From the NCBI GenBank assembly GCA_903813345.2, contig CAIIXF020000007.1, positions 11,537,730 to 11,601,729 on the forward strand: a DNA stretch of 64,000 bases. Reading direction: 5' to 3'. Below are positions 1-34,400 of the stretch, in pieces (within the stretch, counting starts at the first letter, position 1; every line of letters starts with the position of its first letter). This DNA comes from Owenia fusiformis. Taxonomy: Eukaryota > Annelida > Polychaeta > Sabellida > Oweniidae. The notes under the pieces were generated by a model that saw only the letters and a program-made list of their open reading frames with translations, was not told the origin of the DNA and ran no database searches. A program made the position numbers and the translations under genes.

Positions 1-473
1 TCCTTTGCCAACCACAGGGTGAGGATGACGTATCTGTTCTGCATGCGTTACAAAAGCACGATAATTCTCGCGTTTCAACAATATTATCGGAAACCCCTCT
101 CACAGCATTGATTCGAAAGGTACATGTACCTTGTACTGGTTTAAGTCCAGTCGCCCTATCTTCAATGTTTTAATAATGCGTTCTGGGATTTCTTGGATTT
201 TCATTTGTGTCCTGGCAGTTTCACTTTGAGACTCTGAGCGTTCCCTTCAGTCTGGCGTGTTTTGATTGTTTCTCTATACACTTGGCGTATGCGTGCCCTG
301 TATTCCCGGGATGCCTTGTCGTTCTTTTCTCTGATCCGTTGAAGAGCTTCAGCAGACAGGTTATTTCTCGGTGTATACGATGCTCGCTGTCGCAATCGTT
401 CTTGCTCTAAGTAGCCTTTGGTATCTTTTCTTTCTTTCTCTCCCTGTACTGTAGTCTTAGGGAACGACGACAC
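1..473 (-). CDS. Partial unrecognised gene, basic N-terminal segment plus Cys-containing segment
   Basis: Two open stretches on the minus strand, 473-201 and about 108-1, may be parts of one gene that runs off the window. The first encodes 90 residues, very rich in Arg/Lys/Glu/Gln, with helical heptad-like character around SAEALQRIREKNDKASREYR. The second is open to the window edge and contains a CFCNAC cysteine motif. A basic charged segment followed by a Cys-x-Cys-x-x-Cys region resembles lophotrochozoan multicopy genes of unknown function, but I cannot name the family. Whether the first open frame ends at its stop near 201 or splices into the second is unclear. It may be a mobile-element-derived gene. 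Confidence 0.3.
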
Positions 474-3336
474 TTCTCGGCGTTGGTGAGTGCCATATTC
501 TTATATCATCAGAAAGGTCTGATAAGTAAGACAGATATGTTAATGAGAGTGTGGGAAGTTATGCACATTAATAAAATGTCACAAAACTGATTATCCCAAT
601 GAAATATTTATTGTTTTACAATAATGGCAAGAAATACATTTCGTCTAGTGGTACACTGAACGAAACGTTTATAAATTAAGAAATATCGGGGAATGTGCAT
701 CTATATTTGTCAGTGATTTTATAAAACTATGAACTGCTCAATCATCCCAATTCTTGTGTCACATTACCATAGCATTTCAAAACAAACAGAATATGCATCA
801 TAAGTAAATAACATGATCTGCTTAATAGATTCAATTTTATTTATCACTATACGTTGTAATCACAATGAACAATATGTTCTAAATCCTTAGCTCGGTATCA
901 CTGTAAAATGCTACACATACAACAAAATAGTCATTTAATGAATGTAGGTTAATTCAACAAATATATAGCATTCGATTATACATGTGACCTACTTAATATG
1001 TGGATAGTATTTTGGAGTCGTATGTGGTGGAGTCGTTGATGGTCGTAAATATCTCAATCTTTACGTGGTCAAAGAATAACATCAATAAAGCGTATTTTTA
1101 TATTATCAATATATATTGAGACAAACCGTCAACACCATTACTTAACATTGAAACCTGATTTTGATTGAAAGCAGAGTGCAAAGACAACGTACTTGTGGAG
1201 TCGATGATGATTTTGAAAAATAGTACTTTACGTCGAAAAATACGTAACAAGCTAAATATGTTATATTCAAATGTATTTTGAAAATGTTTTACATCCGTTA
1301 ATAAGGCAATTTATATTTCAAGTGAAGTGAATGGGGGATTATCATGAATAGTGCAGAGGCTTCTCCACACCGTTGATTTCAAGCATGGTGTCGATGATGG
1401 TTCCTTCGAGGGCTACACATACTTAATGTCGATTTTCCAATAGTAAATTAGCAAATAAATTAATTCCAGCTAACGTACAATCGACACGATGCAGTCTTTA
1501 TGATGAAATTGTCAATTATCATAACAAAATACGTTCCAGAATATAAAAAAGTTACTGTCAATTAACATAAGGGTGATCGGTTACAAGGCAAAAAATGATA
1601 GTTTGGAATGTTCGACGATTGATAATGCGTTCAGCTTTTATAACCCTGAGATAAAAACTAAATGATAATTTGCAGGATTAAGAGACGTTTAATTTGATAC
1701 CAAATACTCATGGTAGAGCGTATATTAAATAGCGGAATAAAAACATATAGTCATGTAACATAAAATTCGTTATAATGAAAGGAATATGTGGCCTGAGTGA
1801 ATACGTATTTTTTACGATTTTTGCCTCCTTTGTTTTGAGAAAGGGGACAAATAATATCATTGAAAAATGTCTCTGGTCCCCCCGGTGTGAAAGAAATAAT
1901 GGTCCGCCAGAGATTATGGTCCCCCTTTTTAAAGGCCCTTACTGGCCCTGATGTGTATAAGATAATAAGGGAAAGAGTTGTATTTAGGTCACCACATAAA
2001 TCAATGGAGAGTAGGACCATAATTTGATAGAACTTCCTACCCTTTTACACCTGTTATAAAGACGTATAAACGTCGGAGGAAATTGTTATTTTCATCATTT
2101 TCACCAAGCTCAAGGTCAATTTGTATCCAAATATTTCACCAGTATGTCAATTCTTCCATCGGATCCGGTTACTGAAAAGTTGTAGTCAGTTACGAGGAAA
2201 TATATATCCAGCAGCTCCATTAATCGAGTAAGAATTCACCACTTCAGCAACCGGGTCGTTATTGGACGTTAACACAATGCAACTAAGACGTTATGAAATT
2301 CGCCAGATAACGTCCCGGTTGCCCTTTTCAGTAATTTTTCCATCCTCTGGAATATAACACCATTGTTTCGTATGGGGAATGGAGGCGAACCTCACGTAGA
2401 ATTCACCTTTTTTATCTTGAGTCAGTAGTTTCAATGCTTTTTTTATATCGTGACGCATTTCTTCTTTCGCTTCTTACATCAATATGCACCTCTTTGTATC
2501 TGCATTTAAGAAAATCAAAATTAGATAGCAGCTTGGCAAGATCGTGTGTTAAGAATAAACGAATACAATCAAATTTTACCAGCACCACAGTCATTTGGAC
2601 ACTTTATAGGCTTTCACTACTATTGACTTTCATTTTTAATATGTGAAAAATATCAGCTTACATGATATGGTGTATTTTTTAATGATTGCATTTAATTTGC
2701 TGACATGAATAAAGTCTAAAAGGTGATCGTATAAAGTGTGAAAATCTAGCTACATATTATACAAGGCTTATAATGTTTTGTAAAATCAAGAACGTAGCCA
2801 CTGGCCAGGCACGAGACAGGCGAGGTTACAGAATTATATTAATAAAACTATGTACAACTGTGGAAATGAAGTCCAATATGGTTGTATTATATAATCTAAT
2901 TCATCCTAATTTTGCCTAATCTATTAGATTTGACTTGTAAGACAACGCATCCATTTTAAGATCCTGGTTCAGTACTTTGGAAAAGCCATGCAGCATCAAT
3001 ATTTTTGCCATATATGGGCACGTCGTGATACAAAATTCGAATCCAAACAGCCGCCATTTTGTTCACTTCAACATTTGAATCGTGAATTTTGGTCTTATTA
3101 CCTTACGAAAAATTCCAAAACTCACAAGAAATGATCGAGATATTGGTTCGAATCTTTTGAACTGTTTAGTTTGAATTTATAGTCGGTTATAATTTCAGAA
3201 ATAAACGACACTTCGACGTTTTACATTGTTGGAAAATATCGAGTTTCGATCCAGGGAGCCAATCCTCCTTGGATAAAGCCAAAACAATGCACCGGAAGTA
3301 AAAACAGGGGCGTCGACGTTGCTCTCCGTGCCAAAT
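474..3336. other. Intergenic or intronic AT-rich stretch, no gene seen
   Basis: I see no convincing exon in these 2.9 kb. A dispersed repeat lies at 1885-2049. If the solute-binding-like gene splices at its last visible donor (3358-3359), its final exon should lie here, but I could not identify one. Confidence 0.5.
1885..2049 (+). repeat. Dispersed repeat, copy 1 (second copy at 34612-34766)
   Basis: About 160 bp here align with 34612-34766, in the same orientation. Shared landmarks are ATTATGGTCCC, CCCTTACTGGCCC, TAGGTCACCA and CCTACCCTTTTACA, with scattered differences. The second copy lies in an intron of the beta-lactamase-like gene. The family is unknown; it is probably a short non-autonomous element. 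Confidence 0.7.
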
Positions 3337-6300
3337 CTAGGAATTCAACACATACTTACCATAGTTCATACATAGCTGTTCCTGCATTCCACTCATGGCG
3401 TAGTCCATGAAGCATTTGTCCCACCACGACATATCAACGTCCTTCCTGGTCATCATTGCCAATCCACCATGTGTGCAGTCGAACGAGTCAGTAATTTTTA
3501 CCAATCCATCTGTTCCATCACGTCCTTCGGGTAGGAGGGCCACGTCAAACTGAATAAAGGAAACACAACAATTGATGGGAATTCATTTCAACAAGTTGCG
3601 TTCTTCATAACAACACGGTTACAATATTTAAAAATCAAAATACCTCTCTTTGATTAAATGAAAGCATGTTTTTTAACAAATTTCGCTCGAAATTTCGTAA
3701 CCTTTCTCAGAACTCAAAGATTTCCCGACCACTGTAATATTTTTTGAAAAAAATCCTATACTTTTCCAGGTCGGAGAAAGCACATCTCAGTGATCGCTTC
3801 TTTATAAGGTGTTATAAGGTGGTATCTGTAAAGTTTATAACTGTAGTACCTCTCTGTTGGTAAGCTTCTCCAGGACGGTCGTCCAGTCTCCGTCAACGTA
3901 GACTACACTGGATGGATCTAATGTGTCCGAACCAAAGAAAGCATTACGCCGAGCACATAACGCGTCCATATAATATGCGGCTCTGAACCCTGGAAAAGTA
4001 CTAAACATGTAAACTAACACCAGAAGCACGTAATGAGTAGCAACCCACTCCAAAACGTATACCCACCTCAAACAATTTTATAGTGTATGAAAAATAATCG
4101 AAATGCTTTTTACGTTTTACCCTGCGTGCAAAGTCCAGTTATAAACTACTCAAAACAAAGCTCTCTTTTAAGAAGCGGAGTCGAACGAATGCAAAGGGTG
4201 ATTACGTTTCCGCATTTTCTGAAGCATGTTTTCTTACCCACACTTGCTGGAAAGATATCGGCCACCGTAGTGATTCCAGAGTCGGGATGCGCGTACAACG
4301 CTGCCATAGTAGCTGTCATGAAGGGCCTCGTAAAATTCAATGTATTCATCCTTGAAATAGTCCGTCCCCACCCAACACAAGCATCGAAGTGACGATCATT
4401 CAAACCTGTTAAGAATTGTCGAGAATTGATGAAAACGCCGATTTAAGAGCTTCGCATACTTAAACTTTTAATGACCTATTGTGCATTTCCTTCTTCTTAA
4501 TAGCATATTCAAATTCAGTGAAAAGCACAATTCATGCAGTTATGTTATTTAAATCATTTTCCATGAATTTTTCAATTTTTCTAAATTGATGTGGGCCAAA
4601 CCTCCATTGATGGACTGTTACAATTACAATTCTTTAAAACCTTGGTGGTTTATTCGTTCAAGAAACAAAGGTTTGGTATCGATATGGGGAACTGAATTCA
4701 ACAATGTTTTTCTTTTAAACCAATCATTGAAAACATTCTGTAAAAACACGGTATTTTATGTAAATGTTGACTGACTGACAACAATTTAAAGCGAAAATTA
4801 TTTAGAAATATTTTATATAACTGTTTTTGTTAACATTTTTTGTTTTTTTTGTGCAATTGTTTTTGCTCCTTTCTACCAATTCTTAAGAATGAAATAAAAT
4901 GTCTTTCCGAACCTCGTTGGAACAAAATAGCATATACAACATGGTTTTAGACCTCTCAATATCATAGTTATACAAAGGAATTTTTGGTTGATTTTAAAAA
5001 AGTATTCAAAAAATTAAAACAAAATCCCCCCAAATAGATAAAAATCAAGATAACCCTTTTATTTCATTAACAAGATACTTTTTTAAAATCAACCAAAATT
5101 TCCTTTGTACAATTACAATATTGAGAGACCTAAACATGTTGTTTATGTCGTTTTGTTTCAATGAGGTTCGGAATTTCACAGATGTTTCATTTCACTCTGG
5201 AAACATGACACCAAGAACAAATCAAGTGTTTGATGTGTTTTCTAAAACAATATAGATGAAAGTATATATATTTTTCAAATTATATTGTTACCATTCAAAA
5301 GATGACCATTAAATCGACGATGTGTTAAATTTTTAGATTTTTTATGACTGGTTTAAGAGAAACGTGTGTTCAAAAAGTTCTCCATATCGATACCACTCCT
5401 TTTCATGATTAATCAGCATTAAAAGGGTCATCTAACAGTAGCTTATGCCATTTGAGTTTTAGACAGATTCAACAAAACATTTTGGTAAATCATGAAATAA
5501 GCGACTACTTATTGCAAGTTGCAAGTTTTTACCATTGAAGCCTATGGCAGTTTGGTCCAGCCAAAACAAATAAAAACAAGTGCTGACATCTTTTTATTGA
5601 GCTTAAGACTGTATTTTACATGCATGCGGTGCTAGTGAATTGCATAATATTTTAATGAGGTCTCTCCCCAGGCATCACTAAAAGAACAATAAGCCACGCA
5701 GTGCAAATTACATGCTCATGTGTTTTTACAAAAATAGCTTATCCAAGCGCACCCACACTCACATAATGTTTTGAAAGATACCACGGTTTATTGCCGTGGA
5801 ACTCCTGCGGTGCACTAGCAACGAGCAGACGCGATTGACAGACACGAGCAGCCGGCAAGGTTGCCACAGCGTAATTAGCGGTTTAAGTGCGCTTGGATGA
5901 ACTGCTTTTGTTGAAAAAGTGTGAGCATGTAATTTGCAACGTATGGGCTCATTTTTCTTTTTCATGATACCTAGGGGGAAATTTATTAAATATTATGCAA
6001 TATACTTGCGCCGCGGGCAGTTCAAAAACGCAGTCTTATTCAGCTATATAGCAACTCACTTATATTAAAAAAAACTTACTATTAGCTTCTGGATTGGGTA
6101 TTTAGGAGATTCACATTGTATCAAGTGATTTAGTTATGTGTGTATATGTACCTCGAGATGACATGTCACTGGCATCATAGCACCGCTCGGCATTGTCCCC
6201 AAGGAAGACAGTGTCACATTTCATGTCACACATGTGACATACATCTTTTATCATTTCGTACATCATACCAACTGCTTTGCCAGTGTATTTGTCCCTATCA

Positions 6301-13400: not shown

Positions 13401-16400
13401 GGAAAGCCTGTTCGTCAAGGTACGTGTACTACTCATACGAGGCATGATCAGAATGTTTCTTATGATAATTGATTCGGAAAGCTGTATACCTTTAAAACAT
13501 TAATCTTAAATCAAAATTTCTAACGAGATTTAATATCATATTGTCATTCCATTGTAAGTTTCATTCAGGTTTTAGCCACATATGACAGTCTCTATACTGA
13601 TTTACGTCTATTACATTCTATCTGGGCTTGTAAGGGCCACTACATAGGTACCCGTATAGATATCTCGAGTGTTATTGACATTTCGGCTTATCTCTACTAA
13701 TCCACTCGAGTTAAGCCTTTAAGTCAACAAACCGACCCTTCGCTAACCCTAAGGCCCGATAAGAGGCTTCCTAGCCCCCGAAAATCGACCCTATTTCCCT
13801 CCCCCACCACGCCCCTACCCTGGGTATAGTTAGGGGTGAAGTCTTCTAGGCCTAACCTAACCCCCCTAAACACTTTGGCGCGGGTCCCATCTCTCTAGCT
13901 CTCCCCGTTCGGGAGATAGAAATCGGGCTGTCGGAGCCGCTTTCTTTGATCTCGCCGACACCCCCCTCCCTCGCATATTCAGGCAATTTCAGTTATACCC
14001 TTACTATACTCCTCCATTCTTAACCCTAATCGCTATAACGGATAAAATCGGTTTTTACCGAACCTAACATTATAATAAAAAGTAGTAGACTGATTTCACG
14101 TCAAAATTCTCATGATACCACACAATAATTGTAAAATAAAACTCCCTAATAAATGATGTCTTTCATTTGTCGAAATGTAGCCACATCCCCACATTCTAAC
14201 TTCTGTGAAGTTTTACGTTTTAAATCATATTGTCTGTGCCTGCATGTATTCTTAGCTCAAAATAGTGGCTGGATTTTACGAACTGTACATTCGATATGTA
14301 CATTAAATCAAAACTTGTAATCATAATAGCATAGTAGTCTACTAACATTTTCATTCAATAATGACATAACAATAATATGTTTTTAATACATAAACAACTA
14401 TATTCTGATATATTTTGTTTTTGTTTTCAATATTCTTGATGATTAAGTTAACTATCTTATCTAGCATAACTATAAACAAATAAGTTACACTACATAGTCT
14501 CTTTGAAAGGTGCAACTTTGAAAAGTATCAGAATGTGATCTTTGGATTCTGATCTGCATATCCGAAACATAACGCTTGACCAAACCATCGTTCAATTTGC
14601 GTATTTGAACAGAAGTCTGGTAATATATCTTCTACACTTCGATCTGCCCTTGCACCATTGTACAGAAATGTATATGGTGTATTGTCCACACACTGATGAA
14701 TCCAAGCTTTGAAGTCTAACTGCAGTCGAGATAATTTTCCTTTTTAGCTCTTTGCAAATGTTTCGAAATCTGAGTTGTAACAGTAATAAGACGGTGCGTG
14801 GCCGTAGGAATCTACAAAATACACGTTTCTTCTGCTATCTCGCTATCTCTGGGTACTATAAAGAGGCACCAATGTTGACCCTCTTGAGATGTTTTGTCTG
14901 TATTACTAACTAATATCTCGCACTTTGGAGCATTGTGTAGGACTAAGCTACGTAACTCATCGCTACCAAACACTCCGTAATGTTTATTTTTGGTTAAGTT
15001 ATTGCTTTTCAAAATACAATTAATCTCCTCCGTGTTCATTTCGTCGTTAAATCAGTTGAATATAACCTTTCTGGACTTGTCTATTTCGAAGACTGTGGGG
15101 AAGACACGAACTGAAATGTTATCTTCGATACTGAGTTTACATGGTTAAGACTTACAAAGTTCAAGCAGTCAACTTATACCAATACTGCGTTGATTAAATG
15201 TAGTTTCCCGTCCATAATCAGGCCCGTAAGACACTTTTCTCCAAGGGGGGTGCGGTTTTTAGCTTACTAAAGAGAATATAAAATTGTCAATTTTTTGCCG
15301 CGTAAATCAAATCGCGTAAGTCAGATGGGGGGGGGGGGGGCTCAGTTACTCTCTATATTGGTTTGGAATTAACAAATGCAACTTCCAAACGTTCCAATTG
15401 TTTTGTGGGGGTCGTGACGAGTGGTCCACTCCCCCTAGAAATTTTACAGTTTTGAGATGCTATTTGGTGCTTTCTGGGCACTTTCAAAGTGTAAGTTTCC
15501 AAGTAGTACGCCTACACCACGGGAATAAGAGTTGAGTGAATAAAAACCGAGCATTCAGGGGGGTCTGGGGTCCTTTCCCAGGAAAATTTTGAAATTTGGT
15601 TGTATTTGGAGCGAATTTGCAACCATCTGGTACGCCTGTGCGTTATGAGTCAATAAGAAAAATGTGAATTTTTTTTCAAATTCTTTTGGGGGTGTCAAAG
15701 AGGATGAGAGGGTAAGTGGGTTGGGGGCCAGTAGGGGAGCAAGGAATATTTTCTTTTGTTTTGTGGGGGATCTGAGGTGTGGCTAACTCTCCTAGAAAAT
15801 TTTACAATTTAAAGATGATATTTGGTGCTTCTGGACACTTTTAAAGTGTATTAGTCAATAAAAACATTGAAAAACAAGCACATCAAATTTTGGGGTTGTC
15901 AATGAGGGGGGGGGGGGGTGCCAGAGGGGGAGGTGGGGCTGGGGTGCCAGAGGGGAGCAAGTGTTTGTCCACCATATCAACATTTACAATATCAAGGTGC
16001 TTTTCGATGAAGTTTGGGCACTTTAAAAGTGTCTGTGCCTAAAAGTGCCTATTTCCCAAGAAAATTTTACAATTTTAAGGTGCTATTTGGTGCTTTCTGG
16101 GCACTTTCAAAGGGGGTGTTAGGGGGGGGGGGCTGCCAGAGGGGGAGGTGGAGTGGGGATGCCAGAGGGCGAGTAAGTGTTAGTCTTCCAGAATCGTTAA
16201 CTTTATCAAGGAGCTATTTGATGATGTCTGGGCAATTTAAAAGTGTCAATACATAAAACAAAATCAGAACTTTTCCATTGTTTTGTTTGGGGTGTGAGGG
16301 GTGGCCCACTCCCCCTAGAAGATTTTACAATTTTACGACGCTATTTGGTGCTTTCTGGGCACTTTCAAAGTGTATGAGTCAATTAAAGAATTTGAGAAAA

Positions 16401-19400
16401 TCACAATTTTTTTGGGGGGAGGGGGTCAAGGGGGGGGGGGGCGCCAGAGGGAGGGGGGTTATGCAAGTGCAAGATGCAAGAGGGGGAGCAAGTCCCCCAG
16501 AAACACTTACTATATCAAGGAGCTATTTGATGATGTCTGGGCACTTTGAGAGTGTCTGAGACAAAACACTAAACTTTTCCATTGTTTTGTGGGGGGTGTG
16601 AGGGGTGGCCAATGCCCCTAGAAAATTTTACAATTTTAAGATGCTATTTGGTGCTTTCTGGGTACTTTCAAAGTGTATGAGTCAATGAAAAAAAATTACA
16701 AAAAAAAATATTTTTCAAAAAAAATTATTTTTTTCAAAAAATTTTTTTCAAATTTATTTTGGGGGGTGACAAAGGGGGGTGCGGTCGCACCCATCGCACC
16801 CCCCCCCATCTGACGGCCCTGATAATGACCATTATAATAAACCCATTTTCTCAAAACGCAAAGAACCATATCCTAATTGTGTTTTGTATTTTTATCGACT
16901 TTTTCATGTTTACAATAATCTTCACTAATTTAAGTATTAATAACAAATTTAATCCGCACATTCTCTTCGGAAGCTGTCAGAAGGTGATCTTTGCCTTTTT
17001 ATCTGCATATTTGAACAGAAAGTTTAACCAAGCCATCGTTCACTTGGGTATTTGTACTGAAGTCTGATTATATATCTTGTACAGACCTGCCCTTTCACCA
17101 TTGTACCGAAAATATATCAGTATTGTTCACATACTTAAGACAAGGCATACTGAAGTTGAGACAACGTTTCTTTGTAATCTCTTCGTAAATGTTTCGAAAT
17201 CAGAGTTGTTATAAGACGGTATGTGGCGGTATGAATCTATAAAATAGACGTTGGACATTCCTCGCCTGTTCTTGTAGATAACATACTGTGCGTGTACATC
17301 GAAATTAATGCTATTGTTAAATATTCGGCCCAAATATGTAGAGTGCTTAACGCTTTCAAGGAAAGTTGTCATTAAAAGTGAATTGCATATTGGATTTTGA
17401 GAAAAAAACAATTGTTATCTTGAAAGTGTTAACAATAAGGTGATACCTCTTACAGAATTTAAATAGACAATTTGACATTCTTTCAGCCCAATCTTCAATA
17501 TTTGAATATAAAATTAAACCACCAGTCCAAAGTAAAAGATTTATCTGTTGACAATCAATTTAAATTTTACACTCTTTTGCTAAATACTGTGACAAATCGT
17601 CAAGGAAGTGGTTGAATAAGTAATTACTTAGCCCTGCATTATGTCGGCATATGTCTCGAAAGTAGGGGCGATACCATCTTTGAGTTTCAGACAAGTTTTC
17701 GATTTTTATCCATTCTGAAAATGATTATGAAACTAGTTGAATTAGGTCGTATATCCAGTTTGCATGGTTTACACATTAAACATATTAACATAATCGAACG
17801 CTTTTCCGAAGTCAATCTTAATTCGTTATACTAGTTTCTTTTACTCGTTTATAGTGAGATATATGAGTGCGTAAGATAAATAAAGTGTGCTTTGTCTTAT
17901 TTAGATTGCGTCGACAACATTGCCTGTGTAAGCTTAAACATCTATTACTCTATAATTATCAGGATCAAACGTACTAGTATACAACCTTGCTTAGAAATAG
18001 TTTATAACATGCCTATTCCCCATTCATTTGGGTAATATACACTTAGAAAAACATGATTTAAAGAATGGTGATATAGTCCATGGTATGAAATCTTTAGGAC
18101 GTCTAATAAAGGAGCTGGCAGCACACTATAGCGCAGCGATATTTGAACTAACATTAACATACCTACATATGTTCCCTAATAATTTTTATAATAACCGTTT
18201 AATATACTTCCAGCTTTCAGGCTGAATTATGCCTGCCATTAACAGAGGTAAAATGAAATCCCAATTTTTCCCAATTTGGAGTACACAATGCAACAGAAAA
18301 TAATACAAAATGATTTTAAATATATGATTTAGGTTTCTAAGCTATAAATTTGAGGTTATTTTTCTTATCGATACCAAGAAATTATGTAATCAGTGTATCG
18401 ACGCTTTGTATTGTTTCTCAGGTATTAATAAGATAAATGTTACAAATGAATCATTTTTATATTAGAATGACAAATGCTTATTAGATTATGCTAGTTTTTC
18501 ACAAAATGGGTCTCAGTACGCTTTGAGATATGGACTTTTATTCAGCGGTGAACATTATCAATAAATGAGGGCATATTGCTCTTCCTTGAATAATTGGGAC
18601 TACAGCTAAATTATATTTCTCGTAGTTAGATATAGCTCAGTTGCTTATAAAACAACCATCAAGACTTGGTCGAATTCATGAATAATTGAGAAAAATCGTT
18701 ATCATTATCTTCCTAAAATCTGATTGTATCCAGCGGTAAGGTCAAAGAAGAAACAGCCACCAGAAAACTTGATGATAGCCACAAGTAATGTCGCGGAAGA
18801 ATTGTAAGGCGTTCGATTGCATATGTCTCTAATTGATTATTACACATGCCCTTGGAATATATGAACATTCCAATAACTCTGTAACATTTAATTAGATATA
18901 TATCTTATTCATTTTTGTATTATGTTTTATAAAACATGAACAATAATTTGTTGTTAAACTCCTTGCAATTATATGGAAAAATTCTGGTAATAAAATGTTT
19001 CAAATGGTAGGAAAACTAATATGTTCCCAATCATAAATTACCTAAATATTCCACACAATTCTGTTGAATCGGCTTGGCTCATATTTGAAAATTCAAACAA
19101 AATCTGAAAAATACACTTGCGTAATTACATTAATCAAACACCGACATCTACAGTAAAATCATAGTATATGTTTACATTATGATAATCAATTTTTTGCTCG
19201 TATGCTTAGAATAACGGTCTGTGTCTTATAAAATGTATAAAAGTTCGAATCAAAATATTTACGTTTTTTGACCCCTTGTGTTGAAAGACATTTTTCGACC
19301 CGAAAGCCGGAACTTTTTCAGCAAATGGTATTTTTAAAGAATCAAGACATATACACCTTCATAAATGTTGGTTCAAATGTTGCTGCGCTATAGTATATAC

Positions 19401-22400
19401 AGGGTGTCTCAAAAAATGTACCCAAAAGTATATCGAGAGCACAGATAAACCAATCGATATTTTCAGACATTTTTTGCATGGTCATGTAGCCAAAACATGA
19501 AAGTTTTCTCCCCAATACACAATATTTATTTCAGTCTTGTCTTTTTGATGCTTTAACTCTTTACCTTTTACACTACATAATCGATATAACCTCATATTTC
19601 GATGACAGACTGTATCCTTAATGCTACATTGTTCATCAAATTTGATAATAATTCCGGTGGAATGTTTTGGATTTCTCTTTGGATGTTTCCCTTAAGTTGT
19701 TCTAGGTCTTTTTGCTTGGAATAAGCATTAAAACACTCCTTCAAATAGCCACAGAGAAAGATGTTTGAGGATGACGATGACAGAACAAACACAGATAATC
19801 AGGTCAATTATCGGCAAATGATTCAGGAGTTACCTTCCAGAGTATGGCAGGCTAGCCTGGAGACCAAATCATATCCAAATGAAAACACAGTGGTCTCAAA
19901 TTGATACACAAACAAAAGCTACACTAGAATCCCAAGCAATGCAGTTTCTTGAAACTCTGACCTCTCTATATAATGGGGGCTATAAGACATTGTGAGGGCC
20001 TCCCTATTCACCATATTTGACGGCCCATACTTTTTTCTCTGAGGCTATTTGAAGGACCATTTTTATGCTAAACCCAAGCTAAGAGACCAAGAACAACTTA
20101 AGACCAGCATCCAAACAGAAACAAAAACATTCCACCAGATATATCAAATGTGATGAACAATGTAGTAGTAAGGATGCAGACTGTCATCAAAATATGAGGT
20201 TACATTGAATATGTGGTGTAAAAGGTAACGAGTTAAAGTATCAAAAAGGCAAAACTGAATTAAAAACTGTTTATAGGGGAAAAACTTTCATCTTTTATCT
20301 TCAAGACCATGCAAAAAATGTCTGAAAATATTGAATGGTTTGTCTACGGTGTTGATATACTTTTGGGTACATTTTTTTGAGACACCCTATATATATTATT
20401 CGGAAATCATACCATGAACTAATATCAGGAATGAGTGATTTGCAGTTTTAATAATATTTGAGGGTAAACCATCAATTATTCCAGCAGCTTTATCATAATT
20501 TATACTCTATTTAAAGCCATATACACTTCAGCTTATTCTTGAATCTTGTTATTTCCAATATTGTCACTCAATTTCATTTGTGTACTTGAACTACAAACAC
20601 CAAACTTGTCTCTGCTCGTTTACAATGATGTAACAAAACTAGATAAATTGTTTTGCCAAATAATAGAATATGGTATTTAGTTGTAAACGCAATGAATCAT
20701 TGTAAGTTGGGCAATAAAAAAACAGTGGGATAGTGATGGGGAATGGGTGGTTTTCGAAAAATGCAGTACAAAATAACTCCCGTATTCTTCAATGTCAAGT
20801 AATAATCAGAGAAAGAAACGTATAATAAATACTAAATGTTCTTTCACATAAATTAAATGTATATAGTCCGTTTGTCATTTTCTGAACGTATGAATTTGTA
20901 AAAAAGACGATGTTTTATTTTTAGAAATCACCACAATAAGGGTTTTCTGAAGCGATTTAGCAGGGTTGCCAAAAAAGTGATTATCTTTAATATTTTGAAA
21001 AGTAAGCATAGAAACATCACAATTTTTGTGTCTAAACCCAGGTTTTCAGGGTCAGGGAATAAGATGAAATTATTTTTAAAAAATCAAGATTAGAACACTA
21101 ATTTTATTCTCTATGCAAAATAAGGACAGCCATTATCGAAATAGTGATAACCTTCAATATTTGTAAACTTAGTACAGTAGAATGACAATATTGGTGTCTA
21201 AAACTAGGTTTACAGGCTCAAATACTAAGGTGAAATGATAAAAATATTTAAACGAAAATAATTGTGATCATGCAAATTAGGACGGCCATTATCGAGTTAT
21301 TGATTATCTTCAATATTTAGGAGACTCAGCACAGTAGCATCACAATACTGGTGTCTAAATCCAGGTTTTCAGGGTCAGGGAATAAGATGAAATTATTAAA
21401 ATCATGATCACAGCACTAATTTTATTCTTAATGCAACATAAGGGCACTCATTATCGGAATAGTGATAACCTTCAATAATAGTACAGTAGCAGTACAATAT
21501 TGGTGTCTAAACCTAGGTTTTCAGGGTCAATAATAAGATAAAATGATGAAAAAGTATTTAAACGAAAATAATTGTGATCATGCAAATTAGGACGGCCATT
21601 ATCAAGTCATTGATTATCTTCAATATTTTGTAGACTTAGCACAGTAGCATCACAATACTGGTGTCTAAATCCAGGTTTTCAGGGTCAGGGAATAAGATGA
21701 AATTATTAAAATCATGATTAGAGCACTAATTTTATTCTTAATGCAAAATAAGGGCAGCCATTATCGGAATAGTGATAACCTTCAATATTAGTACAGTAGC
21801 AGCAAAATATTGGTGTCTAAACCTAGGTTTTCAGGGCAATAATGAGATGAAATTATGAAAAAGTATTTAAACGAAAATAATTGTGATCATGCAAATTAGG
21901 ACTGCCATTATCAAGTCATTGATTATCTTTAATATTCTGGAGACTCGCCACAGTGGCACCACAATACTGGTGTCTAAACCTCGGTTTTCTGGGTCAAAAA
22001 ATAAGATAAAATGATAAAAAATATTAAAACAATAAATATTGTGATCATACAAATTATGGCGGTCATTATGAAATTGTTGATTATCTTCAATATTTCGGAG
22101 ATTAGTCAATAAAGCATCACAATACTGGTGCCTAAACCCAAGGTCAACGAATAAAAGGTAAATTAACAAAAAAGATTAAAACAATAATGATTGTGATTAT
22201 GCAAATTTAATTAGGGTGTCTATTATCGAATACTAAGAATAAAATAACATCACAATTGTTATCTATTTTACTAAACTCAGGTTCTCAGGATCGGAGAATA
22301 AGATTAACTTACATAAATAGGATTTGAAGAATAGTTATTTTGTTCAAGCAAATCAAGGCGGTCATCCATTTATTGATTTTTATTTTTTCAATATAGTTTA

Positions 22401-25400
22401 TTTCAGTTTCTAAAGTAAGTACAGATACAGCAGTAGTAAATCAATTACAATCTTATCATATTCCATTTGTTTTTAAAAAATACATTTTTACGTACATAAA
22501 TTTCGAATTTTAGAGTTTTAACAATTCCTTCAAAATTTCGTTTTATTCCATTATTTAATTCTTGGATGTATGCTTTATAGATCACAAATGTTACAATACT
22601 AATAAAATAGTTCAAAAATGCAGTCTGGTTGTCATTTTCATTATAGCCTATTATCAACTTTCTATATGTTATCTTTAAACCTGATATGTTAAAGATATGT
22701 TTCCAAACATTTTGGGAGAGTGTACATGTGAAAAGCAAATGAAAGAGGAGGTTATCTTCTATAAAGAATTGTATAAATCTAAAGCTTGCACTAACGAAAA
22801 GCTTGTTACATACTTTAATAGCATTAATTTTCCAAAAATATTAGATAAAAATGACAAAAACCTTTTGATTGGAAAAGTAACAAATGAAGAATGCTTAAAA
22901 GTGACAACAAATATGAAGTTAAATATATCTCCTGGGTCAGATGGATTTACATCTAATTTTTACAAGTTCTTTTGGCAGGATGTTAATTTGTATGTTATAA
23001 ATGCTATAAATGAATCCTATGAAACTGGCATACTGCCACCATCTTTTAGAAAAATTATAATTAGTTTACTTTTTAAAAAAGGAGATAGGGAACTTTTGAA
23101 AAACGTTAGACCTATCTCACTCTCTAATACAGACTACAAAATACTAGCTTTTATTTTGGCAAAGCGAATGCAAAAAGTAATTGCAAAAATAATTGGGTCT
23201 CAGCAGACTGCCTATATAAATAATCGTTTTATTGGAAATAGTTGTCGACTTACGCTTGATATTTATGAATATGCTGAAAATTTTGAAAAAGAGGGCGCTA
23301 TTTTATTCATTGATTTTAAAAAATCTTTTGATAGTATCGAGTGGAATTTCATCTTTGAAACATTCAAAAAATTCAATTTTCCTGAACAGTTTATTAAGTG
23401 GATAAAAATACTCTATGTAAAACCTATGGTAACTATAAAACAAAATGGATGGTTTTCTGAAAATATACACATGCAAAGATCCTGTCGGCAAGGCTGCCCA
23501 GTATCTGCTTTGGCATTTATTATGTGCACAGAGGTCCTTGCACTTAAAATAAAACAGAATATTAACATAAAATGCATTGAAATAAACAATAATGAATATA
23601 AACTCTCTCCATATGCGGATGATGCTAATTTATTTTTAAAAGACAAAGATTCAATATTGCAAGCAATTCAAACGATTCAATCATTCTCTTATGTTTCTGG
23701 ATTAGAACTAAATATAGACAAAACTGAAGGAATTTGGTTAGGGAGAAGTAAAGTGAATGAAAATAACTTTGCAAATATAAAATTTAGCAATGCGCCGGTA
23801 AAAATTCTTGGCATTTTTATTGGACATGATAAAGACAAATGTTATGAGCTAAATTGGCTGAACAGGATAACAAAATTAGAGAAAGTATTAGATTCTTGGA
23901 AAAAGAGGAATTTAACATTAATTGGAAAAATAACAGTGATAAAATCAACCGCCCTTCCAAAATTGATTTATGCAGCATCAATACTTCAATATGATAATGA
24001 AATTGTAAAAAGAGTGAATACAATAATTTATGAATTCCCTTGGGATGGAAAAGATAAAATAAGGCGAACTTTTATTATAAATTCATTAGAAAAGGGTGGA
24101 CTTAACATGATAGACTTTGAATCTCAATTGCATGCTCTGAAAGCTGCTTGGATTCCAAGGTTATATGATAGAAAACAAATGATGAATAAAATACCATATC
24201 TCTATTTTGATAATATTGTAAATGATTTTGATGTATTATTGGAAATGAATAGTTTTGATTTGCAATACTTTCAGAAAATACCAATTTTTTATCAGCAAGT
24301 ATTATGTGCTCATGCCAAATGTAAAGACAAAAAAAATCTTGAAAATATGAAAACATGTGATATCCTGCAAGAGACTATATGGGGTAATAGTTTGTTAACT
24401 GTAAACAAAAAAACTCTGTATTTTAGAAATTGGATTGAAAGTGGTATTGTCTATGTAAAGGATCTAATAATAGAGGATACATTTAATGATACCAACCACA
24501 GGAAAAACAAAATTGGATATCTGAATTTTATCAAGTTAACTCAAGTATGAATATTGCAAGAGGTTTTATTGATGTCAATAAAGCAAAATACACAAACATT
24601 CCAAATTACAGATTGAAAGCAAGTAATGTTTTATTCCAAATTAGAGATCAAAAATCAAAATTCTTTTATGACATTTTGAAAAATAAGCAATCTGAAAAAT
24701 GGTTCATGAAAAAGAAATGGGAACGTGAATTTTGCTTCTTAAATAATGAAACCTTCGATGAAATAAATTGGGAAAACTTTTTTTTTACAAAGATAAAATG
24801 TAAAGAAAAGAAGATAGCTAATTTCAACTATAAGATTATAAACAACATCCTTCCTAGTCTAAATGACTTACATTTATATGGAAAAAGTGAAACATATAAT
24901 TGCAGTTTGTGCGGAGAAGTATGTACATTAAAACATTTGCTTTTCACATGTACACTCTCCCAAAATGTTTGGAAATATATCTTTAATATATCAGGTTTAA
25001 AGATAACATATAGAAAGTTGGTAATAGGTTATAATGGAAATGACAACCAGACTGCATTTTATTAGTATTTTAACATTTGTGATCTATAAAGCATACATCC
25101 AAGAATTAAATAATGGAATAAAACGGAATTTTGAAGGAATTGTTAAAACTCTAAAATTCGAAATTTATGTACGTAAAAATGTATTTTTTAAAAACAAATG
25201 GAATATGATAAGATTGTAATTGATTTACTACTGCTGTATCTGTACTTACTTTAGAAACTGAAATAAACTATATTGAAAAGAAGAAAAAAATCAGTAAATG
25301 GATGTCCGCCTTGATTTGCTTGAACACATTTGCTTTGGCCACCTTTTATCTCTAAGGGGAACCCCATGCTATATTAACCCGCAAAACATGCAACGATAAC

Positions 25401-28400
25401 AAGAGCAAAAAAGAAAACATGTGTCATTTGCAATGAAGCAGTTACAAGGGGTGATGAACAAATACTTCTCTGCTTAGTCTCCGAACTATATATTGAAGAT
25501 TATCAATAAATGGATGACCGCCTTGATTTGCTTGAACAAAATAACTATTCTTCAAATCCTATTTATGTAAGTTAATCTTATTCTCCGATCCTGAGAACCT
25601 GAGTTTAGTAAAATAGATAACAATTGTGATGTTATTTTATTCTTAGTATTCGATAATAGACACCCTAATTAAATTTGCATAATCACAATCATTATTGTTT
25701 TAATCTTTTTTGTTAATTTACCTTTTATTCGTTGACCTTGGGTTTAGGCACCAGTATTGTGATGCTTTATTGACTAATCTCCGAAATATTGAAGATAATC
25801 AACAATTTCATAATGACCGCCATAATTTGTATGATCACAATATTTATTGTTTTAATATTTTTTATCATTTTATCTTATTTTTTGACCCAGAAAACCGAGG
25901 TTTAGACACCAGTATTGTGGTGCCACTGTGGCGAGTCTCCAGAATATTAAAGATAATCAATGACTTGATAATGGCAGTCCTAATTTGCATGATCACAATT
26001 ATTTTCGTTTAAATACTTTTTCATAATATCATCTCATTATTGCCCTGAAAACCTAGGTTTAGACACCAATATTTTGCTGCTACTGTACTAATATTGAAGG
26101 TTATCACTATTCCGATAATGGCTGCCCTTATTTTGCATTAAGAATAAAATTAGTGCTCTAATCATGATTTTAATAATTTCATCTTATTCCCTGACCCTGA
26201 AAACCTGGATTTAGACACCAGTATTGTGATGCTACTGTGCTAAGTCTACAAAATATTGAAGATAATCAATGACTTGATAATGGCCGTCCTAATTTGCATG
26301 ATCACAATTATTTTCGTTTAAATACTTTTTCATCATTTTATCTTATTATTGACCCTGAAAACCTAGGTTTAGACACCAATATTGTACTGCTACTGTACTA
26401 TTATTGAAGGTTATCACTATTCCGATAATGAGTGCCCTTATGTTGCATTAAGAATAAAATTAGTGCTGTGATCATGATTTTAATAATTTCATCTTATTCC
26501 CTGACCCTGAAAACCTGGATTTAGACACCAGTATTGTGATGCTACTGTGCTGAGTCTCCTAAATATTGAAGATAATCAATAACTCGATAATGGCCGTCCT
26601 AATTTGCATGATCACAATTATTTTCGTTTAAATATTTTTATCATTTCACCTTAGTATTTGAGCCTGTAAACCTAGTTTTAGACACCAATATTGTCATTCT
26701 ACTGTACTAAGTTTACAAATATTGAAGGTTATCACTATTTCGATAATGGCTGTCCTTATTTTGCATAGAGAATAAAATTAGTGTTCTAATCTTGATTTTT
26801 TAAAAATAATTTCATCTTATTCCCTGACCCTGAAAACCTGGGTTTAGACACAAAAATTGTGATGTTTCTATGCTTACTTTTCAAAATATTAAAGATAATC
26901 ACTTTTTTGGCAACCCTGCTAAATCGCTTCAGAAAACCCTTATTGTGGTGATTTCTAAAAATAAAACATCGTCTTTTTTACAAATTCATACGTTCAGAAA
27001 ATGACAAACGGACTATATACATTTAATTTATGTGAAAGAACATTTAGTATTTATTATACGTTTCTTTCTCTGATTATTACTTGACATTGAAGAATACGGG
27101 AGTTATTTTGTACTGCATTTTTCGAAAACCACCCATTCCCCATCACTATCCCACTGTTTTTTTATTGCCCAACTTACAATGATTCATTGCGTTTACAACT
27201 AAATACCATATTCTATTATTTGGCAAAACAATTTATCTAGTTTTGTTACATCATTGTAAACGAGCAGAGACAAGTTTGGTGTTTGTAGTTCAAGTACACA
27301 AATGAAATTGAGTGACAATATTGGAAATAACAAGATTCAAGAATAAGCTGAAGTGTATATGGCTTTAAATAGAGTATAAATTATGATAAAGCTGCTGGAA
27401 TAATTGATGGTTTACCCTCAAATATTATTAAAACTGCAAATCACTCATTCCTGATATTAGTTCATGGTATGATTTCCGAATAATATATATAGGGTGTCTC
27501 AAAAAAATGTACCCAAAAGTATATCAACACCGTAGACAAACCATTCAATATTTTCAGACATTTTTTGCATGGTCTTGAAGATAAAAGATGAAAGTTTTTC
27601 CCCTATAAACAGTTTTTAATTCAGTTTTGCCTTTTTGATACTTTAACTCGTTACCTTTTACACCACATATTCAATGTAACCTCATATTTTGATGACAGTC
27701 TGCATCCTTACTACTACATTGTTCATCACATTTGATATATCTGGTGGAATGTTTTTGTTTCTGTTTGGATGCTGGTCTTAAGTTGTTCTTGGTCTCTTAG
27801 CTTGGGTTTAGCATAAAATGGTCCTTCAAATAGCCTCAGAGAAAAAAGTATGGGCCGTCAAATATGGTGAATAGGGAGGCCCTCACAATGTCTTATAGCC
27901 CCCATTATATAGAGAGGTCAGAGTTTCAAGAAACTGCATTGCTTGGGATTCTAGTGTAGCTTTTGTTTGTGTATCAATTTGAGACCACTGTGTTTTCATT
28001 TGGATATGATTTGGTCTCCAGGCTAGCCTGCCATACTCTGGAAGGTAACTCCTGAATCATTTGCCGATAAGTGACCTGATTATCTGTGTTTGTTCTGTCA
28101 TCGTCATCCTCAAACATCTTTCTCTGTGGCTATTTGAAGGAGTGTTTTAATGCTTATTCCAAGCAAAAAGACCTAGAACAACTTAAGGGAAACATCCAAA
28201 GAGAAATCCAAAACATTCCACCGGAATTATTATCAAATTTGATGAACAATGTAGCATTAAGGATACAGTCTGTCATCGAAATATGAGGTTATATCGATTA
28301 TGTAGTGTAAAAGGTAAAGAGTTAAAGCATCAAAAAGACAAGACTGAAATAAATATTGTGTATTGGGGAGAAAACTTTCATGTTTTGGCTACATGACCAT

Positions 28401-31400
28401 GCAAAAAATGTCTGAAAATATCGATTGGTTTATCTGTGCTCTCGATATACTTTTGGGTACATTTTTTGAGACACCCTGTATATATACTATAGCGCAGCAA
28501 CATTTGAACCAACATTTATGAAGGTGTATATGTCTTGATTCTTTAAAAATACCATTTGCTGAAAAAGTTCCGGCTTTCGGGTCGAAAAATGTCTTTCAAC
28601 ACAAGGGGTCAAAAAACGTAAATATTTTGATTCGAACTTTTATACATTTTATAAGACACAGACCGTTATTCTAAGCATACGAGCAAAAAATTGATTATCA
28701 TAATGTAAACATATACTATGATTTTACTGTAGATGTCGGTGTTTGATTAATGTAATTACGCAAGTGTATTTTTCAGATTTTGTTTGAATTTTCAAATATG
28801 AGCCAAGCCGATTCAACAGAATTGTGTGGAATATTTAGGTAATTTATGATTGGGAACATATTAGTTTTCCTACCATTTGAAACATTTTATTACCAGAATT
28901 TTTCCATATAATTGCAAGGAGTTTAACAACAAATTATTGTTCATGTTTTATAAAACATAATACAAAAATGAATAAGATATATATCTAATTAAATGTTACA
29001 GAGTTATTGGAATGTTCATATATTCCAAGGGCATGTGTAATAATCAATTAGAGACATATGCAATCGAACGCCTTACAATTCTTCCGCGACATTACTTGTG
29101 GCTATCATCAAGTTTTCTGGTGGCTGTTTCTTCTTTGACCTTACCGCTGGATACAATCAGATTTTAGGAAGATAATGATAACGATTTTTCTCAATTATTC
29201 ATGAATTCGACCAAGTTTTGCTGGTTGTTTTATAAGCAACTGAGCTATATCTAACTACGAGAAATATAATTTAGCTGTAGTCCCAATTATTCAAGGAAGA
29301 GCAATATGCCCTCCTTTATTGATAATGTTCACCGCTGAATAAAAGTCCATATCTCAAAGCGTACTGAGACCCATTTTGTGAAAAACTAGCATAATCTAAT
29401 AAGCATTTGTCATTCTAATATAAAAATGATTCATTTGTAACATTTATCTTATTAATACCTGAGAAACAATACAAAGCGTCGATACACTGATTACATAATT
29501 TCTTGGTATCGATAAGAAAAATAACCTCAAATTTATAGCTTAGAAACCTAAATCATATATTTAAAATCATTTTGTATTATTTTCTGTTGCATTGTGTACT
29601 CCAAATTGGGAAAAATTGGGATTTCATTTTACCTCTGTTAATGGCAGGCATAATTCAGCCTGAAAGCTGGAAGTATATTAAACGGTTATTATAAAAATTA
29701 TTAGGGAACATATGTAGGTATGTTAATGTTAGTTCAAATATCGCTGCGCTATAGTGTGCTGCCAGCTCCTTTATTAGACGTCCTAAAGATTTCATACCAT
29801 GGACTATATCACCATTCTTTAAATCATGTTTTTCTAAGTGTATATTACCCAAATGAATGGGGAATAGGCATGTTATAAACTATTTCTAAGCAAGGTTGTA
29901 TACTAGTACGTTTGATCCTGATAATTATAGAGTAATAGATGTTTAAGCTTACACAGGCAATGTTGTCGACGCAATCTAAATAAGACAAAGCACACTTTAT
30001 TTATCTTACGCACTCATATATCTCACTATAAACGAGTAAAAGAAACTAGTATAACGAATTAAGATTGACTTCAGAAAAGCGTTCGATTATGTTAATATGT
30101 GTAATGTGTAAACCATGCAAACTGGATATACGACCTAATTCAACTAGTTTCATAATCATTTTCAGAATGGATAAAAAATCGAAAACTTGTCTGAAACTCA
30201 AAGATGGTATCGCCCCTACTTTCGAGACATATGCCGACATAATGCAGGGCTAAGTAATTACTTATTCAACCACTTCCTTGACGATTTGTCACAGTATTTA
30301 GCAAAAGAGTGTAAAATTTAAATTGATTGTCAACAGATAAATCTTTTACTTTGGACTGGTGGTTTAATTTTATATTCAAATATTGAAGATTGGGCTGAAA
30401 GAATGTCAAATTGTCTATTTAAATTCTGTAAGAGGTATCACCTTATTGTTAACACTTTCAAGATAACAATTGTTTTTTCTCAAAATCCAATATGCAATTC
30501 ACTTTTAATGACAACTTTCCTTGAAAGCGTTAAGCACTCTACATATTTGGGCCGAATATTTAACAATAGCATTAATTTCGATGTACACGCACAGTATGTT
30601 ATCTACAAGAACAGGCGAGGAATGTCCAACGTCTATTTTATAGATTCATACCGCCACATACCGTCTTATAACAACTCTGATTTCGAAACATTTACGAAGA
30701 GATTACAAAGAAACGTTGTCTCAACTTCAGTATGCCTTGTCTTCAGTATGTGAACAATACTGATATATTTTCGGTACAATGGTGAAAGGGCAGGTCTGTA
30801 CAAGATATATAATCAGACTTCAGTACAAATACCCAAGTGAACGATGGCTTGGTTAAACTTTCTGTTCAAATATGCAGATAAAAAGGCAAAGATCACCTTC
30901 TGACAGCTTCCGAAGAGAATGTGCGGATTAAATTTGTTATTAATACTTAAATTAGTGAAGATTATTGTAAACATGAAAAAGTCGATAAAAATACAAAACA
31001 CAATTAGGATATGGTTCTTTGCGTTTTGAGAAAATGGGTTTATTATAATGGTCATTATGGACGGGAAACTACATTTAATCAACGCAGTATTGGTATAAGT
31101 TGACTGCTTGAACTTTGTAAGTCTTAACCATGTAAACTCAGTATCGAAGATAACATTTCAGTTCGTGTCTTCCCCACAGTCTTCGAAATAGACAAGTCCA
31201 GAAAGGTTATATTCAACTGATTTAACGACAAAATGAACACGGAGGAGATTAATTGTATTTTGAAAAGCAATAACTTAACCAAAAATAAACATTACGGAGT
31301 GTTTGGTAGCGATGAGTTACGTAGCTTAGTCCTACACAATGCTCCAAAGTGCGAGATATTAGTTAGTAATACAGACAAAACATCTCAAGAGGGTCAACAT

Positions 31401-34400
31401 TGGTGCCTCTTTATAGTACCCAGAGATAGCGAGATAGCAGAAGAAACGTGTATTTTGTAGATTCCTACGGCCACGCACCGTCTTATTACTGTTACAACTC
31501 AGATTTCGAAACATTTGCAAAGAGCTAAAAAGGAAAATTATCTCGACTGCAGTTAGACTTCAAAGCTTGGATTCATCAGTGTGTGGACAATACACCATAT
31601 ACATTTCTGTACAATGGTGCAAGGGCAGATCGAAGTGTAGAAGATATATTACCAGACTTCTGTTCAAATACGCAATTGAACGATGGTTTGGTCAAGCGTT
31701 ATGTTTCGGATATGCAGATCAGAATCCAAAGATCACATTCTGATACTTTTCAAAGTTGCACCTTTCAAAGAGACTATGTAGTGTAACTTATTTGTTTATA
31801 GTTATGCTAGATAAGATAGTTAACTTAATCATCAAGAATATTGAAAACAAAAACAAAATATATCAGAATATAGTTGTTTATGTATTAAAAACATATTATT
31901 GTTATGTCATTATTGAATGAAAATGTTAGTAGACTACTATGCTATTATGATTACAAGTTTTGATTTAATGTACATATCGAATGTACAGTTCGTAAAATCC
32001 AGCCACTATTTTGAGCTAAGAATACATGCAGGCACAGACAATATGATTTAAAACGTAAAACTTCACAGAAGTTAGAATGTGGGGATGTGGCTACATTTCG
32101 ACAAATGAAAGACATCATTTATTAGGGAGTTTTATTTTACAATTATTGTGTGGTATCATGAGAATTTTGACGTGAAATCAGTCTACTACTTTTTATTATA
32201 ATGTTAGGTTCGGTAAAAACCGATCTTATCCGTTATAGCGATTAGGGTTAAGAATGGAGGAGTATAGTAAGGGTATAACTGAAATTGCCTGAATATGCGA
32301 GGGAGGGGGGTGTCGGCGAGATCAAAGAAAGCGGCTCCGACAGCCCGATTTCTATCTCCCGAACGGGGAGAGCTAGAGAGATGGGACCCGCGCCAAAGTG
32401 TTTAGGGGGGTTAGGTTAGGCCTAGAAGACTTCACCCCTAACTATACCCAGGGTAGGGGCGTGGTGGGGGAGGGAAATAGGGTCGATTTTCGGGGGCTAG
32501 GAAGCCTCTTATCGGGCCTTAGGGTTAGCGAAGGGTCGGTTTGTTGACTTAAAGGCTTAACTCGAGTGGATTAGTAGAGATAAGCCGAAATGTCAATAAC
32601 ACTCGAGATATCTATACGGGTACCTATGTAGTAGGGCCATGTGCAAAGGGACTTTATGGACAGGGGCAATAACAGTTTTCAAGCTATATATATGACACAC
32701 CTTATTGAGTTGTTGATAATGAGCACATGCATACATGTATTGAAATGTTGCTATATGCCATTCAGGTGTTGAGGAGGACTACTCATCAGGCGCATATGCT
32801 GTACTGCAGCAACTCCTCAAAGACCAGACGGGTCAGGATTTCAAACAGTTGGTGCAAACCGAGGTAGTTAGAATTGCTTAGGTTGTTGCAAAACTCAAAC
32901 ACAGGTTTGATCACAAAATAATGGATTGATGATAAATGGAAAGAGGAGGGAGGGATATATCAATGTGACAAAAAGAATTCCTTAAAAAATGCCTTAATTG
33001 AATTATTTTTCATTTACCATTTTATGATTTAGGTTTTAGGTAAAGCAAGTATGTCGTCAAGTACATTTGATATTAAAAGTCCGAGTAATGCTTTTGGCGT
33101 GGCTTATGGTTATGACTGCATCAGTGAAAGGGACACCGTCGTACCAGGTAAACAAATCAAACAGCATTCATACAAATCTACAATATGTGTTACATAAATG
33201 CTCTTTGGCGTACCTTAGTTTTTCGTTCATTTGGTTTTCTTGAATGGATTTATTTCAAGTTCTTCCCATTCGTGTTTGTCTTTACTACCCTATATCATAC
33301 AAGAGTAGTATTGTGGCGGACCAATTATCTCAGCTATTATATATTTCAGGGAATTGGTGGAATTTCCCCGAATCTGCTGCTCAAGGTCTTTGGACAAATG
33401 TGAAAGATCTTGCCAACCTTGTCATCAACATTGCTGGTGGCAAAAGCTCAAGACCTGGGTCTATTTTAAGTAAGTTGAATCTCAAGAGCTGGCATCTACT
33501 TCCCTGTGAAGTATACCAATGGCTCTGTTATGTCCTGTCATGATCATAGTTCCACATGACCTTCGTTTATACTGGTACTTATTAGTTGGTCCGATCACGG
33601 GTTTCAGGGAAATCTTGTAAATCAAGAAATATGTTTATTTATCCATACCGAAACAATTTTCGTATGCGGTGAATTGTTGTTGTCGAATCTCTAAAAAAAT
33701 TAAAACACACTAATGCATTATCACAGATGCAGCTACAACTGCTAAAATGCTCACTAAACAAACGAGGAAAGGACAGGGCAATCCACCTGCTAATGAAAAC
33801 GGCATGTTCGGAATTGGCACAGAAGTAGTCGATGGGCAGAACGGAAACACGTGGTTTGTGAATACCGGATATAGTGAAGGATACTGTAGTGAAGTTATAG
33901 GAAATACAGATGGCCGTGGATTAGTTCTTATGTCCAACCAGGATTGTGCACGTGGCCATTTTCTACTTGGGGAAATATTCCGTGCTGTGGCACAGGTTTA
34001 TAATTGGCAGGATGCCATAGGCAACTCGAAAATCGAATTCAACAAAAGGTAATAAAGTCAGACAGTCTTCAAATAATACAATTTCTAATTGTACTGCTCG
34101 TAGCTTCATTTCCACGGTGAAAATGTTTATGTTAAATATAATAGTTATCTGGTGATGGATGATGGGCTCCCTTGCCATTGTTATTTCGTCAGGTGGGTTT
34201 GATCATTGCTATGGGATTGCATTTTGTTATTCCGTTTTCTAGTTGAGTTATTTTGTTTTTCCCATGGCCAATGTGATTCCTTGTTAATACTGTATATTCG
34301 TAATTTGCCTTTTGTTAGAATGCAGGTCAGGCCAGCCCCGCCCTCTCCACAACCATGGGAAGGTAATTATGTGATTGATGACATCCAGGTTCCACCACTT

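Follow-up and report, generated by a model that had tools for sequence, protein, structure and literature searches.

A palindromic mobile-element copy in Owenia fusiformis and its apparently Polinton-derived family

Polinton (Maverick) elements carry 6-bp target-site duplications, terminal inverted repeats (TIRs) and an adenain-like protease and measure near 18 kb, features shared, with the protease in remnants, by a family of mobile elements in the annelid Owenia fusiformis, one copy of which lies in the 64,000-nucleotide stretch analysed here (the window; assembly GCA_903813345.2, contig CAIIXF020000007.1, positions 11,537,730 to 11,601,729). The family differs from Polintons in being without a PolB or integrase match, in ends that read ACTACATAGG and not AG/AGT, in TIRs of 3-3.65 kb, and in having palindromic derivatives, of which the window copy is one. 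To our knowledge, the replication of Polinton-type elements and the upkeep of their ends are mostly inferred. Protein-primed viruses such as adenovirus form symmetrical defective genomes, in which one end is present twice, inverted, to give two valid termini; the likeness to the window copy is the end carried twice, and the difference is that these are virus DNA and not a chromosomal insertion. The available part of a source on incomplete adenovirus particles mentions left-end DNA and makes no mention of symmetry.

Among transposons, Galileo (P superfamily, Drosophila) has long, dynamic TIRs, and both of its ends have taken up nested transposons as well as sequence from its interior, but in the accessible portion of that report the recruited open reading frame (ORF) segments run from 69 bp to over 500 bp, not to a whole half element (PMC4168063). 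Its duplications are 7-8 bp (6 bp in 6/6 copies here), and it has a P superfamily transposase. A Bari1 variant of D. rhopaloa likewise has one long identical TIR at both ends, but is described in the excerpted text as a putatively autonomous Tc1-mariner element with a TA target (PMC4877112). Teratorn is a herpesvirus/piggyBac fusion with other ends and genes. No description of a palindromic Polinton was found in the titles and abstract openings of the papers listed by literature searches, the coverage of which leaves out most subscription journals.

The window copy and its family

A prior reading of the window from its letters alone (the sequence-only reading) proposed a Polinton-like fossil forming one giant palindrome, with mirrored arms, outer ends from the same terminus and an AGGGCC duplication around the whole. 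Self-BLAST of the window bore out the arms, with inverted pairs at 13639-15218/32632-31054 (99.8% identity), 16822-22377/31058-25502 (99.77%) and 22341-22741/25326-24934 (93.8%), a length and identity beyond chance. The element is a broken mobile element of ~19 kb in which one half of the family structure (A) is present twice as mirror images and the other (B) is absent. Both outer ends are indeed the same terminus (ACTACATAGG...CCTATGTAGT), with AGGGCC at 13633-13638 and 32633-32638. The palindrome does not extend past these sites: the 300-bp flanks gave a local inverted score of 18, where 200 shuffles averaged 19 and reached 30 at most. A genome search for an empty site with the joined host flanks matched only the two flanks themselves.

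Over ~7.1 kb of outer arm there are 10 mismatches, of which 8 fall in the family TIR and 2 in the next 3.5 kb, and the arm alignment also has five 1-2 bp indels; the innermost 364 bp differ by 8 mismatches, a 1-bp indel and an 11-bp indel. Arm against arm, this amounts to 18 mismatches, six 1-2 bp indels, indels of 11 and 214 bp and a 1.6-kb insertion, counts that exclude mismatches at 13633-13638 (the duplications), 16818-16821 (the insertion edge) and 22742-22745 (beyond the junction).

The sequence-only reading had also suggested using the terminal repeat to learn whether other copies are palindromic or have two distinct ends, and both kinds were found. A search of the 498-Mb genome with the 492-bp terminus (13639-14130) gave 17 matches, of which 12 make up six inverted pairs spanning 17-24 kb (Table 1); the 12 exact genomic matches to the 16-base end are all in these same pairs. 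Because genome searches scored best candidates only, repeat copy numbers are lower bounds. Each of the six full copies has a perfect 6-bp duplication (AGGGCC in the window, CACTTT in E12, GAGGCA in E9b, ATGATC in E3, TCCGTT in E5 and AATGTC in E9a). Four of them (E3, E5, E9a and E9b) have TIRs of ~3-3.65 kb with a common inner boundary (18847/29033 in the window) and two differing interiors, A and B; the A interior matches the arms and loop of the window copy. E12 has B on both sides: its left end follows E5 inward from the B end, and its right half retraces the same B sequence. Palindromes are thus two of the six full copies and of opposite polarity (A-A in the window, B-B in E12), with arms of ~7.5 kb and ~5.1 kb, respectively. 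One arm of E12 is split by an 8.1-kb insertion whose 1978-bp direct repeats (long terminal repeats, LTRs) differ at 3 positions, and its left arm has a ~595-bp one-sided insertion at 5094-5688, past which the arm resumes for ~88 bp; this insertion and the ~88 bp were left out of the tests below. Five lone terminal fragments (C3:26.78, C6:5.32, two on C308, and C9:15.16 Mb) had no second end within surrounding pieces of ~9.9 kb or 9.5 kb.

Long inverted repeats are a known assembly problem, and the palindrome could have been ascribed to a folded contig. Such a fold is very unlikely, because one arm alone carries the 1.6-kb insertion, indels of 214 and 11 bp and 18 mismatches separate the arms, and a second palindromic copy elsewhere (E12) has its own one-sided LTR insertion; the host flanks, moreover, are unduplicated.

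Identity of the ends and origin of the palindromes

In a tree of the first 1540 bp of the 12 TIRs, ends of the same copy group as sisters for five of the six copies. Over this length the ends differ at no position in E12, E9b, E3 and E5 and at 2 in the window, and left ends compared copy with copy diverge by 1.3-3.0%. Deletions private to a copy were found at both of its ends (~566 bp in E9b, 211 bp in E3). Mismatches between ends show inward polarity in three copies: E9b has none in 1-2325 (one deletion at 1033) and 9 in 2326-3018 (P under 5e-6), E3 has none in 1-3125 and 3 in 3126-3395 (P 0.0003), and E12, with a mismatch at 1583 on the edge of the LTR insertion excluded, has none in 1-3291 and 8 in 3292-4944 (P 0.0007). 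These tests counted mismatches and not indels, and left out E5, the ends of which have two mismatches only, both at the TIR boundary (3609-3610). As a control, divergence between copies was binned over the first ~2.8 kb of the TIR in the six left ends and was 1.3% in the first 500 bp and 1.8-2.9% in the other bins; because the outer TIR is not slow between copies except in those 500 bp, the identical tips are not due to slow evolution. Recent copying of one end from the other is the explanation to which these sequences point. The TIR boundary falls inside a 1.3-kb dispersed repeat, which agrees with the TIR having lengthened inward earlier in the same way.

The inner junctions of both palindromes lie at a nested LINE (long interspersed nuclear element) and show 4-5 bp of microhomology. 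At the window junction, the LINE side as it stands in E9b and E12 reads ...GATAATG and then LINE, and the inverted arm continues as ...CAAATG/TTTT, with AATG in common; in E12, the LINE is joined to inverted B sequence with the letters ATAAA (5 bp) in common. The 621-aa reverse transcriptase (RT) frame of the loop (RVT_1, 8.4e-31) was ruled out as a gene of the element because the LINE is nested on the A side of the family and has other copies dispersed in the genome. An 11-bp segment in the innermost left LINE piece of the window is also present in E3 and in one dispersed LINE copy, and is missing from the right arm, E5, E9b and E9a. The innermost 364 bp are more diverged than the outer arms (odds ratio 16, P 8e-7). 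The retained 11 bp suggest that the two window arms started as different lineages and were later homogenised up to 22377.

The best reading of the window element is as an A-A derivative within a family that is small, non-autonomous and derived from Polintons, and whose ends would be recopied mostly from the tip inward, sometimes yielding half-element palindromes, more probably before integration; the probability of this reading is put at about one half. One end would be recopied from the other, starting at the tip, and copying, or repair of a broken linear intermediate, could overrun the TIR into the unique half and so give a palindrome with two valid ends; end joining of two same-side halves may have provided the same product. 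An integrase supplied in trans would then insert the palindrome like a normal copy, after which its arms would act as one very long TIR. Formation on a linear copied intermediate, prior to integration, is taken as the likelier option.

That the palindromic form itself integrated had been deduced in the sequence-only reading from the duplication at its outer ends. This deduction does not hold as proof, since a resident element keeps the same duplication when its identical TIRs undergo gap repair or gene conversion; the lesson is that a duplication around a palindrome is alone no proof that the palindrome was the inserted form. In-place formation would start from a resident A-B copy. Once this copy was excised or broken, repair would have changed template within the identical TIRs, copying A where B had been, and would have ended in microhomology end joining, a case of abortive gap repair; the duplication would then date from the older, normal insertion. 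This route accounts for the retained duplication, the 4-5 bp microhomology and the unequal arms, and has a precedent in Galileo, whose TIRs recruit internal sequence and for which repair abortion, slippage and template switching are named, in the part of the report available, as a source of defective copies (PMC4168063). The E12 arm, however, is more diverged beyond the TIR (6/1523) than within it (2/3570; P 0.011, or P 0.025 with 3/3570 when the mismatch at 1583 is restored), the opposite of what fresh conversion started in the TIR would leave. This favours an E12 palindrome that seems older than the last homogenisation of its ends, as judged from divergence. The innermost left piece of the window, with its 11 bp, also traces to a diverged lineage rather than to the right arm's sister chromatid. 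In-place formation is a credible alternative, put at clearly less than even odds.

Several observations weigh against the preferred reading of tip-inward recopying and palindromes formed before integration. In the window, the TIR has 8 mismatches and the extension 2 (P 0.11; 11 and 4 with indels, P 0.12), so that the extension is not the more diverged part; these data agree as well with in-place conversion, and on the choice between insertion and in-place origin the window copy is neutral or leans toward the latter. Its outer 7.1 kb shows no mismatch polarity (P 0.8), and the polarity of its whole arm (P 0.009) rests on the innermost 364 bp. The ends of E9a fall in separate clades 1.7% apart, with 36 mismatches, 30 of them at 636-1638. 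Divergence between the E12 arms (8/5093) is on a par with that between the LTRs of the element in one of them (3/1978; P 1.0), so the E12 palindrome need not greatly predate that insertion. Each palindrome was found at one site only, with no direct sight of a palindrome transposing, and with PolB and integrase not found in the copies, nothing there accounts for copying machinery. As a separate observation, E9a looks like a recombinant between lineages.

A further, tentative proposal treats both palindromes, A-A and B-B, as symmetrical defective genomes fossilised in the chromosome: a linear Polinton-type element would be copied outside the chromosome from its ends, a lost end would be rebuilt from the other, and the resulting molecules, with two valid and identical ends, would integrate as well as their parent. 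The specific suggestion that protein-primed replication produced the inverted dimers received no support from the analysis. If the copies are such fossils, the history of end repair in a protein-primed mobile element could be read from them. Opposite-half palindromes suggest that a single end can be enough for such an element to rebuild itself, and the combination of co-evolving ends, inward polarity in three copies and palindromes of both halves with intact duplications is a natural experiment on end repair. The family also bears on whether Polinton-type elements pass through a linear copied form.

Relation to Polintons

The Polinton-like character claimed from the letters stood in part. Protease remnants occur in both TIRs of all six copies (12/12 ends), but searches of the copies turned up neither PolB nor integrase, and the terminal motifs are not those of Polintons. 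In the window there are two remnants per arm, broken by stops or frame changes; an assignment of these TIR frames to LINE pieces was ruled out, the frames being the protease remnants. Open relatives of the protease lie at C10:33.55 Mb and C11:28.49 Mb. The one on C10, of 198 aa, has 59% identity over 82 aa to a fragment in E3, matches the window at 1.2e-20 and, in a single comparison, matches at 2e-9 the protease of a Polinton-type element at C9:25120136-25138822. The PolB frame of that element is open over 1485 aa; the element also has an rve-like frame (5.4e-6; 27 bits, below the Pfam cut-off of 32.6) and a Peptidase_C5 frame (21.5 bits, barely over the cut-off of 21.3), to which Peptidase_C48 (the Ulp1 family) is a nearly equal match at 0.00045, just under its cut-off. 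It carries a 366-bp TIR with the end AGTAGT and a 6-bp duplication, GGAGTG, and was ruled out as direct parent of the family by its different ends. Compared with solved structures, the protease profile found adenovirus proteases first (2.7e-4) and SENP8 next (0.0026). Pfam searches of the TIR protease fragments and of the C10 relative alone gave nothing relevant, nor did PHROGs or single-sequence searches of solved structures.

None of the 11 genome matches to PF03175 falls in the six copies, and tblastn with the C9 frames found no PolB there; the rve-like C9 frame likewise had no tblastn match in the six copies, on which no integrase profile was run. Among 24 frames of at least 120 aa from seven loci around PolB hits, only the protease and the nested LINE RT match the six copies (E 0.01 or less). 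The C9 frames in this set carry no assignment as packaging ATPase or capsid protein. All 12 ends carry ACTACATAGG and not AG/AGT repeats. The family is therefore called Polinton-derived and non-autonomous, and not a Polinton, because despite the protease remnants it has no PolB or integrase-like match and its ends are different.

It is doubtful, though compatible with either way of palindrome formation, that the family is instead an ordinary cut-and-paste (foldback-type) DNA transposon of another superfamily with a captured or nested protease. Its ends are unlike those of the C9 element and unlike the AG/AGT motifs of vertebrate Mavericks, whose TIRs, at 46-1447 bp in the text available (PMC8097293), its own exceed; PolB and integrase were not found; and the C9 protease matches almost equally the Ulp1 family, Ulp1-type domains occurring in Ginger1 and other transposons according to the accessible part of PMC2836005. 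Opposed to this are the protease remnants in both TIRs of every copy, the 6-bp duplications, the 17-24 kb size, and the first place of adenovirus proteases in the profile search, adenovirus-like protease being named among the most conserved Polinton genes in the portion of PMC6431247 available.

Two further loci were noted. A Polinton-type PolB relic survives as collinear fragments at C9:15.166-15.168 Mb, ~2 kb away from a 95-bp terminal-repeat fragment of the family; a link between relic and family is only suggestive, the relic being on the outer side of the terminal fragment. The other locus, at C10:32.84 Mb, holds a long open frame of 1468 aa, 1422 of them read, that has a cysteine-rich tail and matched no relevant Pfam family; copies E5, E9b and E12 contain a 71-aa relic of this frame near their midpoint. 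Comparison of this frame with a 113-aa frame in mid-E5 was set aside, the likeness covering 71 aa only and bearing no relevant Pfam name.

Feature coordinates and minor observations

Table 1. Features of the window element (window positions) and the other full copies of the family
Feature	Position	Strand	Remark
Left AGGGCC 6-bp target-site duplication	13633-13638	.	
Left arm, family A half: TIR, A-side sequence and 364 bp of LINE 3' end	13639-22741	+	
Family TIR, left	13639-18847	+	~3.6 kb without the 1.6-kb insert; family TIR boundary at 18847
Adenain-like protease remnant, broken, outer copy, left arm	14594-15045	-	
1.6-kb insertion, left arm only	15219-16821	.	ATAAT on each edge
Protease remnant, broken, inner copy, left arm	17014-17255	-	
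Nested 1.3-kb dispersed repeat, cut by TIR boundary	18080-19394	.	Mirror 28486-29800; left coordinates derived from arm alignment
Minisatellite, ~310-bp units, A side	20978-22207	.	Mirror 25672-26901
LINE 3' piece, left arm	22378-22741	-	11 bp retained, absent from right arm
Palindrome junction, 4-bp microhomology AATG	22738-22741	.	22739-22742 on one reading of the overlap
Loop, nested LINE body	22742-24933	+	RVT_1 8.4e-31; dispersed LINE family
Right arm, inverted A half	24934-32632	-	Includes 214 bp (25289-25502) without left-arm counterpart
Protease remnant, broken, inner copy, right arm	30625-30866	+	
Adenain-like protease remnant, broken, outer copy, right arm	31227-31771	+	1.2e-20 to open C10 relative
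Right AGGGCC duplication copy	32633-32638	.	
Copy E12	C12:14435415-14459681		B-B palindrome
Copy E9b	C9:30730169-30751959		A-B
Copy E3	C3:15437142-15460286		A-B
Copy E5	C5:16651004-16669345		A-B
Copy E9a	C9:2315199-2332353		A-B

With 2 mismatches allowed, the 16-base terminus also occurs 13 times on contig C125 at spacings of ~7-15 kb, a pattern that looks like a tandem array unrelated to the family. Direct and inverted repeats are densely packed at the window's right edge (62204-63999).

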